This document shows positions 61,041 to 64,000 of a stretch of 64,000 nucleotides of DNA, piece after piece; the stretch's first letter is position 1, and each line of letters opens with the position of its first letter. The notes under the pieces are model-generated. The model ran no database searches, was not told where the DNA came from, and was given only the letters and a program-made list of their open reading frames with translations. A program made the translations under genes and the position numbers. The stretch covers positions 62,001 to 126,000 of the forward strand of contig NZ_VORX01000006.1 in assembly GCF_007997285.1 (NCBI RefSeq). Direction: 5' to 3'. Source of the DNA: Gelidibacter salicanalis. Lineage in GTDB: Bacteria > Bacteroidota > Bacteroidia > Flavobacteriales > Flavobacteriaceae.

Positions 61041-61086
61041 AACAGCGCAGCAGTCTTAATTTTAATAACGCAACGGTCTTAATATT
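61041..61086. repeat. two imperfect copies of a 22-bp unit
   Basis: AACAGCGCAGCAGTCTTAATTT and AATAACGCAACGGTCTTAATAT are 22-base near-copies between the M28 peptidase and metK; the second overlaps the metK stop. Confidence 0.5.
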
Positions 61087-62380
61087 ATTCAGAAATCCCA
61101 AATGCTGATCTCACTTTCTCTACATAATCTAATCTCTCCCAAGTAAACAACTCGACATCAAGTGTAACTGATTCGCCATTGAACTGTTCAAAGGTTTTAG
61201 AAACCGTTTCATTAATGCGTCCCATATGTCCATAGGCAGCAGTTTCGCTGTACATTGGTTGACGAAGTTTTAAACGTTTTTCAATTGCAGCAGGTCGCAT
61301 GTCAAAGATTTCTGTTATTTTTTCAGCAATTTCGCCATCTGTTAAATTAAACGGACAGGTACCATACGTATCAACATAAATGGAGGTCGGTTTTACAACG
61401 CCTATAGCGTAACTCACCTGAACCAAAATTTCGTCACACAAACCGGCAGCCACTAAGTTTTTTGCAATATGTCGTGTAGCATATGCGCCACTGCGGTCTA
61501 CCTTACTAGGATCTTTACCGCTAAAAGCCCCACCACCGTGAGCACCTTTACCACCGTAAGTGTCCACAATGATTTTTCGGCCTGTTAATCCCGTATCGCC
61601 GTGTGGCCCACCAATCACAAATTTTCCAGTAGGGTTGATATGGTAAGTGATATCATCGTTAAATAATACCTGAATATGTTCAGGAAGACCTGCCACAACT
61701 CTAGGGATCAAAATTTCAACCATGTCTTTGCGGATTTTCTCCAACATTTTTGTTTCGGCCGCATCAACATCCGATTTTGCGGAAGATTTTGGCTTTAAAA
61801 AATCGTCATGCTGCGTCGATAGTACAATCGCATCAATACGCTGCGGCACGTTGTCATCACTATATTCAATAGTAACCTGACTCTTAGAATCCGGGCGCAA
61901 ATACGTAATGTCTTTTTCCTCTCTGCGCAGGGCAGCCAATTCAATCATCAACCGATGCGATAGATCCAATGCCAAAGGCATGTAATTATCCGTTTCGTTG
62001 GTGGCATAACCAAACATCATCCCTTGGTCTCCTGCACCTTGCTCTTCTTTGTTTGCCCTGTCCACACCTCTGTTGATGTCTTCAGACTGCTCATGGATGG
62101 CGGAAAATACGCCACAAGAATTGCCATCAAACATATAGGCACCTTTCGTGTACCCAATTTTATTGATGGTATCTCTAGCTATCTTTTGAACGTCTATGTA
62201 CGTGTTAGACCTTACTTCTCCTGCCAGCACAACTTGTCCGGTGGTGACCAAGGTTTCACAAGCTACTTTTGAGTCTTTGTCAAAAGCTAAAAAATTATCG
62301 ATGAGAGCATCACTAATTTGATCTGCTACTTTATCAGGGTGTCCTTCAGAAACGCTCTCTGAGGTGAATAAATACGCCAT
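61085..62380 (-). CDS. metK: S-adenosylmethionine synthetase
   Basis: MetK makes SAM from methionine and ATP. The 431-residue protein has [18 protein letters not shown] (8-25), [33 protein letters not shown] and [18 protein letters not shown], all family signatures. It is longer than E. coli MetK by about 45 residues, with extra segments near 170-230, usual in Bacteroidota. Its leader holds a SAM-II-type aptamer, which would let SAM repress its own synthesis. The start at 62380 follows that leader by 60 bases. Confidence 0.97.
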
Positions 62381-62407
62381 ATCCTTTTGTTTATTATAGG
62401 ATTACGG

Positions 62408-62425
62408 AAGATTTGACGTTGCGCG
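62408..62425 (-). promoter_or_regulatory. anti-aptamer segment in the metK leader
   Basis: On the transcript GTCAAATCTT (plus 62417-62408) is perfectly complementary to AAGATTTGAC (plus 62530-62521) in the aptamer loop. Upstream GCAA (near 62418-62422) can pair with TTGC of the same loop. It lies between aptamer and start codon, where an expression platform is expected. Confidence 0.6.
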
Positions 62426-62440
62426 TCGAAGGAAGTTTGC

Positions 62441-62537
62441 ACTGCCTTTAGCATTTTTCATCCCCTACTTGATAGGGAATCTCGTCCTCGGATGTTCCGA
62501 TTCAGAAGAGGTTGCAATCAGTCAAATCTTTCCTCTT
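62441..62537 (-). ncRNA. SAM-II-type riboswitch with long insert (metK leader)
   Basis: The transcript has P1 AAGAGG/CCTCTT (62537-62532 with 62511-62506) enclosing the loop GATTTGACTGATTGCAA, close to the SAM-II core GATTTAACCGTATTGCAA. After an insert of about 45 bases that folds as ATCCCCTAC/GTAGGGGAT-like and CGGA/TCCG hairpins, GAAAAATGCTAAAGG matches the conserved SAM-II 3' strand. Long inserts fit the 'SAM-II long loops' variant described in Bacteroidota. P1 starts about 7 bases after the predicted transcription start. It senses SAM upstream of the SAM synthase gene. Confidence 0.8.
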
Positions 62538-62550
62538 AATTAATATAAGG

Positions 62551-62580
62551 CAAAAGTAAAAAAATTAAACGGATGGCAAA
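62551..62580 (-). promoter_or_regulatory. promoter of metK
   Basis: On the minus strand TTTG (62577-62580), 18 bases, TACTTTTG (62551-62558), an exact consensus match. The predicted start is about 62544, just before P1 of the aptamer. Confidence 0.75.
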
Positions 62581-62788
62581 TCCTTTTAAATCTATTTCAT
62601 TTAAAATTAACTTATAATTTTATTTTCGGATCAATAAAATATGTTGTAACCCTTAGTTAATATGGGCTTAGTGGGTTGTTTTTATCTTGCGATATGAGGC
62701 CGCTTTTAAAATTAAATCCTAAATAATTTGGAATTGTAACATTTGTGTTGCAATATTTGTGCTCACAAAGTTCAAAACTTATTGAAGT

Positions 62789-62907
62789 GTTATCAAGAAA
62801 GGCGGAGGGATTAGACCCGATGAAGCCTTAGCAACCCTCTAGCAATGGAGAAGGTGCTAAATTCTACTTAATTGCTGATTCATTTATCGGCTAATTGGAT
62901 AGATAAC
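62789..62907 (+). ncRNA. SAM-I (S-box) riboswitch
   Basis: P1 GTTATC/GATAAC closes the element. The core reads AGGCGGAGGGATTAGACCCGA, then TGAAGCCTTAGCAACCCTC, then AAGGTGCTAAATTC, all matching the S-box consensus (kink-turn, P2 GAGGG/CCCTC, P3 3' strand). P4 AATTGCTGA pairs with TCGGC-T-AATT. It lies 120 bases upstream of the sulfhydrylase start and should turn that gene off when SAM is plentiful. Confidence 0.92.
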
Positions 62908-62912
62908 TAAAC

Positions 62913-63027: not shown

Positions 63028-64000
63028 ATGAGTACACACAAATTCGCAACCCAAGCGTTGCACGCCGGACACGATGTTCAAGCAAATGGAGGCACCAGAG
63101 CTGTGCCAATTTACCAATCTACAGCCTATGTTTTTAAAGATTCTGACCATGCTGCAAACTTATTTGCCTTGGCAGAACCGGGAAACATCTACACAAGAAT
63201 CAACAATCCTACCAACGACATTTTAGAGCAGCGTTTAGCAGCACTAGATGGTGGAATTGCAGCCGTGGTAACCGCTTCTGGTACTGCAGCAATTGCTACA
63301 ACTTTATTAACTTTGTTAAGAGCTGGAGATCATATTGTAGCCTCCAGTAGCCTTTACGGTGGAACTTACAATTTATTAAGCGTTACGTTGCCAAGACACG
63401 GCATCACTACAACATTTGTAGATCCTTCCGATCCTGAAAATTTTGATAAAGCCGTTCAGGAAAACACGAGAGTTGTATTTATTGAGTCTTTAGGAAATCC
63501 GAAATTGGATGTCTTAGATATCAAAGGCATTTCAAAAGCCGCAAAAGCGCATAAAATTCCATTAATTGTAGACAATACGATTGCTACTTCATATTTGGTA
63601 AAACCCATTGAACATGGCGCCAATATTGTCATTCATTCCTTAACAAAATACGTTAATGGTAATGGTACCGCTCTTGGGGGTGCTATTATTGACGCGGGAA
63701 CATTTGATTGGACAAATGGAAAATTCCCAGAGTTTACGGAGCCTTCTGCAGGATATCACGGTTTGGTGTATGCTGATGTATTAAAAGAAGCGTCATTTAT
63801 TGCTAAAGTACGTATTGAAGGGTTGCGCGATTATGGTTCAGCTTTGAGTCCGTTTAATGCGTTTCAAATTATTCAAGGATTGGAAACCTTAGAGCTCCGT
63901 ATCAAACAACACAGTAAAAGTGCGTTAGCATTAGCCAAATGGTTGCAAGATCAAAAAGAAGTGACCTGGGTAAATTATCCTGGACTTGACAGCAGTCCGT
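63028..64000 (+). CDS. metY: O-acetylhomoserine aminocarboxypropyltransferase/cysteine synthase (partial)
   Basis: The visible 324 residues belong to the Cys/Met-metabolism PLP family, sulfhydrylase branch. FATQALHAGHDVQANGGTRAVPIYQST is typical of MetY; ASSSLYGGTYNLL and VDNTIATSYL bind cofactor; Lys207 in SLTKYVNGNG forms the Schiff base. It makes homocysteine from O-acetylhomoserine and sulfide. The C-terminal part lies beyond the window. An S-box in the leader places it under SAM control, divergent from metK. Confidence 0.94.
   Translation, partial: MSTHKFATQALHAGHDVQANGGTRAVPIYQSTAYVFKDSDHAANLFALAEPGNIYTRINNPTNDILEQRLAALDGGIAAVVTASGTAAIATTLLTLLRAGDHIVASSSLYGGTYNLLSVTLPRHGITTTFVDPSDPENFDKAVQENTRVVFIESLGNPKLDVLDIKGISKAAKAHKIPLIVDNTIATSYLVKPIEHGANIVIHSLTKYVNGNGTALGGAIIDAGTFDWTNGKFPEFTEPSAGYHGLVYADVLKEASFIAKVRIEGLRDYGSALSPFNAFQIIQGLETLELRIKQHSKSALALAKWLQDQKEVTWVNYPGLDSSP

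Follow-up and report, generated by a model that had tools for sequence, protein, structure and literature searches.

Two Rfam families describe the aptamers that lie closest to the element studied here. RF00521, introduced as the metA element (Corbino et al. 2005, PMC1273637), shares its pseudoknot core logic; that report describes compact elements, many of them followed by putative terminators, and SAM binding by the Agrobacterium copy. RF01726 (Weinberg et al. 2010, PMC2864571) is closer still: its members come from the same phylum and have the same core, P1 stem and 3' strand, the same insert ahead of that strand and the same context of SAM metabolism genes. A 2022 paper (PMC9373788) states that no earlier work had examined how SAM-II riboswitches affect expression. 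The metA riboswitch of Sinorhizobium meliloti described there acts on translation with a start codon far downstream, a mode of action that is likewise proposed for our locus. For Bacteroidota, a search of one open-access library, mostly by title and the start of the abstract and with PMC2864571 taken without its supplement, yielded no account of a SAM-II expression platform.

The locus lies in a 64,000-nucleotide stretch of Gelidibacter salicanalis DNA, hereafter the window, for which the initial annotation had proposed a SAM-II-type aptamer ahead of metK and had named a long-loop variant of that class. The features concerned are the following.

61085..62380, minus strand: metK, S-adenosylmethionine synthetase (TIGR01034, E 1.9e-148, above the cut-off)
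62438..62541, minus strand: SAM-II aptamer RF01726, whole model (1-60) matched by cmscan
62445..62458, minus strand: 3' strand of the pseudoknot, AAAAATGCTAAAGG (RF01726 alignment)
62459..62505, minus strand: inserted segment with hairpins at 62499-62489 and 62480-62460 (predicted folds)
62506..62511, minus strand: 3' strand of P1, CCTCTT (sequence and RF01726 alignment)
62512..62531, minus strand: L1, the conserved loop between the P1 strands, AAAGATTTGACTGATTGCAA, in agreement with the RF01726 consensus
62528-62512, minus strand: the loop string quoted in the initial annotation, GATTTGACTGATTGCAA (sequence)
62532..62537, minus strand: 5' strand of P1, AAGAGG (sequence and RF01726 alignment)
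62551..62580, minus strand: putative promoter, with TTTG at 62580-62577, 18 nt, and TACTTTTG at 62558-62551 (read from the sequence by the Bacteroidota consensus)

When the Infernal comparison with the Rfam models suggested in the initial annotation was run, the long-loop family RF01726 matched the minus strand from 62541 to 62438 with 45.5 bits against a gathering score of 44 (cmscan, 64-kb window). The E-value is 1.8e-5 when the complete window is scanned with 4227 Rfam families and 2.6e-7 for its own genome. In the same scan, the window aptamer did not reach the cut-off of RF00521 and passed that of RF01726 instead. All of the claimed strings are present in their places on the minus strand, and the next gene is metK by TIGR01034, a context that supports the aptamer. 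We are nearly certain that the metK leader aptamer is a SAM-II aptamer of the RF01726 kind. Insert-free members of the family score up to 80 bits (L009), and we attribute the low score of the window copy to its insert. Judged by its sequence, this is a new copy of a known, ordinary kind; no defining difference separates its aptamer from RF01726, and the strand complementary to L1 that is described below falls outside the 60-position model.

The proposed aptamer gains further support from its distribution among relatives. Across the taxonomic family, RF01726 is present in 187 of 199 genomes, corresponding to 186 of 198 genera, and above the cut-off in 182. Within the genus, eight of nine genomes, that of the window counted, carry it above the cut-off; the ninth assembly (G001) gives no ground for claiming riboswitch loss, as it yielded no metK at all. 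Leaders were parsed for 168 of the approximately 196 known matches, and after exclusion of 4 without metK, 164 have the aptamer upstream of metK. Among 80 named metK loci, a pattern search recovered the aptamer ahead of the gene in 36 (e.g., Yeosuana aromativorans and Flavobacterium frigoris); these were kept out of the leader counts because some of them duplicate sampled genomes. RF01726 is missing from 12 family genomes; five of these were inspected, of which four carry metK and one yielded no metK. Among the four metK leaders, one resembles a decayed SAM-II aptamer, and the pattern search found no aptamer within 350 nt upstream of the gene in the other three.

Within P1, the inner pairs are nearly invariant over the 164 leaders, and the first outer pair covaries in the alignment: it is of Watson-Crick type in 96 leaders, against 78.2 +/- 4.7 in shuffles with a maximum of 94 in 1000, which bears out the expectation that P1 pairing is conserved in related metK leaders. 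The second outer pair, which is found in the window, occurs as 42 pairs in the family against 63.8 in shuffles and is thus not a conserved part of P1. Since the 3' strand of the pseudoknot hardly varies and the L1 core is conserved, covariation of the pseudoknot carries no information. Equally uninformative is the fold of the aptamer stretch (z -1.13; 25 of 200 shuffles equally good), given that the folding program does not include pseudoknots.

P1 and the 3' strand had been described as separated by about 45 bases with hairpins of their own, and the gap indeed spans 47 nt (62505-62459; 45 inserted letters as counted by Infernal) with two predicted hairpins. The initial annotation also regarded its length as remarkable; this view is not supported for a family named "long loop", in which both the length and the sequence of the insert vary widely. 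The distance from CCTC to the base that precedes GCTAA ranges from 6 to 83 nt in the 164 leaders, the class of 6-11 nt being insert-free. It is at most 12 nt in 65 leaders, 20-39 nt in 49 and at least 40 nt in 50, counts that do not represent population frequencies because leaders with long inserts were preferentially fetched. Folds of the 80 inserts of at least 30 nt contain mostly one to three hairpins, with no shared sequence discernible by eye. When the arms of the second hairpin are picked by hand, 5 to 7 pairs are kept despite letter changes in six genus leaders, as are 6 of 7 pairs in L048 and 8 of 8 in L058; two further genus members (L004 and L005) have a different, shorter insert. 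We read the insert site as a loop where the aptamer tolerates extra hairpins rather than as a new architecture.

Where a strong promoter had been placed just before P1, a sigma-70 scan of the metK leader detected none, but a Bacteroidota-type TAnnTTTG is present. TAnnTTTG, which we take to be the -7 element of Bacteroidota promoters, occupies 62558-62551 in the window and ends 15 nt ahead of GAGG, with TTTG 18 nt further upstream. Of the 164 leaders, 160 have the element no more than 45 nt from GAGG, compared with a mean of 7.0 and a maximum of 17 in mononucleotide shuffles. Its end lies at a median of 14 nt before GAGG, and a TTG or TTTG box stands at the expected distance upstream of it in only 59 leaders. 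Because TAnnTTTG is so close to P1, the aptamer probably begins close to the 5' end of the metK mRNA.

Between the aptamer and metK, three further segments of the window leader require attention.

62424..62435, minus strand: CTTCCTTCGACG, in which GACG is able to pair with CGTC in the anti-L1 strand, and CCTT with AAGG
62405..62418, minus strand: anti-L1 strand, CGTCAAATCTTCCG, complementary to L1, with GTCAAATCTT at 62417-62408 opposite AAGATTTGAC at 62530-62521
62374..62385, minus strand: AGGATATGGCGT, covering the metK start codon and the bases shortly before it, with 11 of 12 letters pairable with ACGTCAAATCTT when G-U is counted

In the free minimum-energy fold of the window leader (-55.0 kcal/mol), the anti-L1 strand is predicted to pair with L1. 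The same complementarity recurs across the family. In the region from the 3' strand to the metK ATG, GTCAAAT occurs in 77 of the 132 leaders with ATTTGAC in L1, 8 of them from the window's genus, and is lacking in the other 55; dinucleotide shuffles lead one to expect 2.05 of 132, with a maximum of 4 in 40 rounds, and these counts, like all shuffle statistics for the anti-L1 strand, ignore kinship in a sample that, outside the window's genus, is close to one genome per genus. Among the 32 leaders without ATTTGAC in L1, none has GTCAAAT (0.3 expected) and 14 contain GCAATC, the complement of the other half of L1 (0.4 expected), which is also found in 10 of the 132 ATTTGAC leaders (2.2 expected). 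CTTTAG, complementary to the 3' strand, is likewise enriched (25 of 164 leaders; 5.3 expected, maximum 11). Two controls were empty: neither the L1 sequence in the same orientation (0.4 expected) nor the reversed motif (0.8 expected) appears in any of the 132 leaders.

One variable letter beside the core covaries with its downstream partner, forming a Watson-Crick pair in 56 of 77 leaders; shuffles give 45.5 +/- 2.5, and 0 of 2000 reach 56. Loop positions -1 and -3 show no covariation beyond shuffles (399 and 105 of 2000). The best helix between L1 and the downstream region has a mean score of 20.3, compared with 14.8 for shuffles and 18.4 for partners swapped between genomes, and the median swap p is 0.325 because many loops are alike. 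A GCN second codon, present in 68 of 80 leaders with GTCAAA versus 21 of 84 without, was given no weight, since relatedness could explain the association. A strand that tracks the loop and is able to unfold it fits, as we read it, what a riboswitch expression platform would need; the switching strand is probably the anti-L1 strand. The neighboring CTTCCTTCGACG may also take part in switching: CCTTCGAC is invariant in 10 aligned leaders (eight from the genus, L048 and L058), and possible AAGG partners of its CCTT are the 3' strand and the ribosome-binding region.

We propose that, when SAM is plentiful, the SAM-II riboswitch would lower metK expression. Bound SAM would lock L1 and the 3' strand in the pseudoknot; in the absence of SAM, CGTCAAATCTTCCG (62418-62405) would form a helix of at least 10 bp with L1 and so disrupt the aptamer. 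With L1 occupied, the anti-L1 strand of the window would pair with the ribosome-binding region and the metK start codon (AGGAUAUGGCGU), and translation would be blocked. The sequence comparisons show the identity and conservation of the aptamer, its gene context, and the complementary strand with its tracking of L1. We infer that the window aptamer binds SAM, that the pairings of the anti-L1 strand with L1 and with the start codon would be mutually exclusive in vivo, and that the riboswitch would act on translation. The whole model, comprising a SAM-II riboswitch, an anti-L1 switch and a start-codon block in the window, is one that we favor with moderate confidence.

Predicted folds of the window leader are consistent with this arrangement. 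Once the aptamer is made unavailable, ACGTCA and ATCTT are predicted to pair with TGGCGT and AGGAT near the metK start, and the predicted chance of an unpaired AUG drops to 0.21 when the aptamer is occupied, from 0.50 in the free fold, in which the AUG lies partly in a local hairpin. A start codon that is more closed with the aptamer occupied gives the right sign for metK, in that more SAM would mean less SAM synthetase. Pairing with the start region involves 11 of 12 letters in the window and 9 or 10 of 12 in the other seven genus leaders. The -15..+10 region is predicted to be more accessible in the free fold in all eight genus leaders; for -20..+6, three of them (L004, L005 and L006) change in the wrong direction, and 59 of the 164 leaders show no rise. 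The AUG itself is predicted to open by more than 0.1 in L001, L003 and L008, to close by as much in L002 and L007, and to change hardly at all in L004, L005 and L006; among the 164 family leaders, 62 show an opening of the AUG and 23 a closing.

Start-codon sequestration by the anti-L1 strand was rejected as a family-wide rule. The strand scores 11.4 against its own start region and 10.8 against those of swapped genomes, with p <= 0.05 in 15 of 164 leaders, and at least 3 expected pairs with the start region are found in 48 of 164. Within the genus, the swap test gave p < 0.05 only for L001 and L004 among the 7 leaders listed. A second family-wide rule, in which any leader strand may do the pairing, was likewise set aside: the score against the leader's own -18..+3 region is 14.0 versus 12.9 for swapped genomes (p <= 0.05 in 21 of 164), and 16 leaders at p <= 0.02 have a long helix at -18..+3 (e.g., L010, L011, L012, L161 and L174). 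In other lineages, such as those of L010, L161 and L174, different helices may close the start region. Given the mixed figures of the other genus members and the lack of a family-wide rule, we regard start-codon sequestration as a possible but rather doubtful off step. The broader proposal, that metK SAM-II riboswitches of Flavobacteriaceae share a platform in which the anti-L1 strand covaries with the loop and unfolds the aptamer without SAM, and in which the strand has the start codon as its second partner in the window, is tentative and falls a little short of an even chance.

Other outputs have to be weighed against this translational reading. The best surviving of them, which we still consider improbable, is transcription attenuation, intrinsic or Rho-dependent, with the anti-L1 strand on the antiterminator side. 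Terminators follow many proteobacterial SAM-II elements, as two reports describe (PMC2258182, PMC1273637), and in the S. meliloti metA study a Shine-Dalgarno sequence within the aptamer is combined with a terminator (PMC9373788). In the window, by contrast, a terminator scan of the metK strand from the aptamer to metK found no terminator-like site, and the leader has the L1-complementary strand instead. Furthermore, GTCAAAT, where present, begins a median of 31 nt upstream of the ATG, a position that fits a translational element.

Control of initiation at a distance, by hiding the purine-rich AAAGG in the 3' strand as in Sinorhizobium metA, would make the anti-L1 strand unneeded, and it leaves that strand unexplained. 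In its favor, the Shine-Dalgarno sequence of the S. meliloti SAM-II riboswitch is needed for initiation 74 nt downstream (PMC9373788). The window's AAAGG ends 64 nt ahead of the metK ATG, and AAAGG is found in 63 of the 164 leaders; however, 83 have AAAGC and 18 have neither. Moreover, Shine-Dalgarno pairing is rarely used in Bacteroidota. We rate this explanation as less probable than attenuation. A still fainter prospect is that SAM controls a small upstream frame that starts within the pseudoknot.

62454-62326, minus strand: upstream frame of 42 codons, with its AUG in the pseudoknot 3' strand, out of frame with metK and ending inside metK

The 42 codons are open in all eight genus leaders with a constant 74-nt spacing, but the frame remains open beyond the metK start in only 35 of the 150 leaders that share the AUG and is as short as 5 to 19 codons in L038, L048 and L058; in addition, the AUG belongs to the aptamer consensus, and constraint at the RNA level acts on the stretch. 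Finally, it is scarcely credible that the window copy is degenerate and has lost SAM binding: its RF01726 score is a mere 1.5 bits over the cut-off, but the low score accompanies the insert, and ATTTGACTGATTGCAACCTC and AAAAATGCTAAAGGCAGTG are the same in 8 of 8 genus copies and match the consensus bar one extra G.

Apart from its expression platform, the SAM-II riboswitch of the window is set back-to-back with a second, divergent SAM aptamer.

62787..62909, plus strand: SAM-I (S box) aptamer RF00162, divergent (74.0 bits, E 1.8e-15)
63028..63999, plus strand: O-acetylhomoserine aminocarboxypropyltransferase gene (metY type), cut by the window end (TIGR01326, E 5.4e-148)

The metY-type match reaches 493.2 bits against a cut-off of 495.1, its protein being truncated by the window end. 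SAM-II on the minus strand and SAM-I on the plus strand share one intergenic region (62438-62909) and are 245 bp apart. The pair is present in 8 of 8 genus loci and, at no more than 350 bp, in 4 of 32 other scanned loci out of 60 with such flanks. When matched by hand from coordinates, it appears in 13 of 100 family genomes, two of them from the window's genus, and SAM-I occurs in 77 of the same 100. A 2007 survey reported that no species contained both SAM riboswitch classes together (PMC2258182); for Flavobacteriaceae, this statement is outdated.

Several other leaders of the family are of separate interest. About 120 nt upstream of metK in L249 (G145), a leader that fails RF01726 has altered core letters (ATTTGACAGATCGC, ATATCAAAAGG) and retains an anti-L1 strand, CGTCAAATCT, despite the altered aptamer core; its sequence may represent either a decayed aptamer or an aptamer with a changed ligand. 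In L024, the aptamer precedes an O-acetylhomoserine sulfhydrylase-like gene, as read from the frame. Two small genomes (L229 and L231) carry a SAM-II aptamer before queF (Pfam PF14489), an unexpected candidate for SAM control. Reading of the frames places a membrane protein gene after queF in both, resembling the DUF6580 gene of L230, followed by a metH-like (L253) or a sulfhydrylase-like gene (L254). L230 itself, together with L255, has a SAM-II aptamer before a DUF6580 gene (PF20221) and then metH-like genes, again read from frames; from this context, a role of DUF6580 related to cobalamin or methionine may be suspected.

At the level of the aptamer, the element described here is a further copy in a known family. 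What makes the analysis useful is that it offers a testable account of the way in which long-loop SAM-II riboswitches may control their gene, and the anti-L1 strand and the paired SAM-II/SAM-I arrangement are the parts that deserve specialist attention. If the proposal is true, a single strand in the window would choose between the sensor, through L1, and the gene, through the metK start codon.
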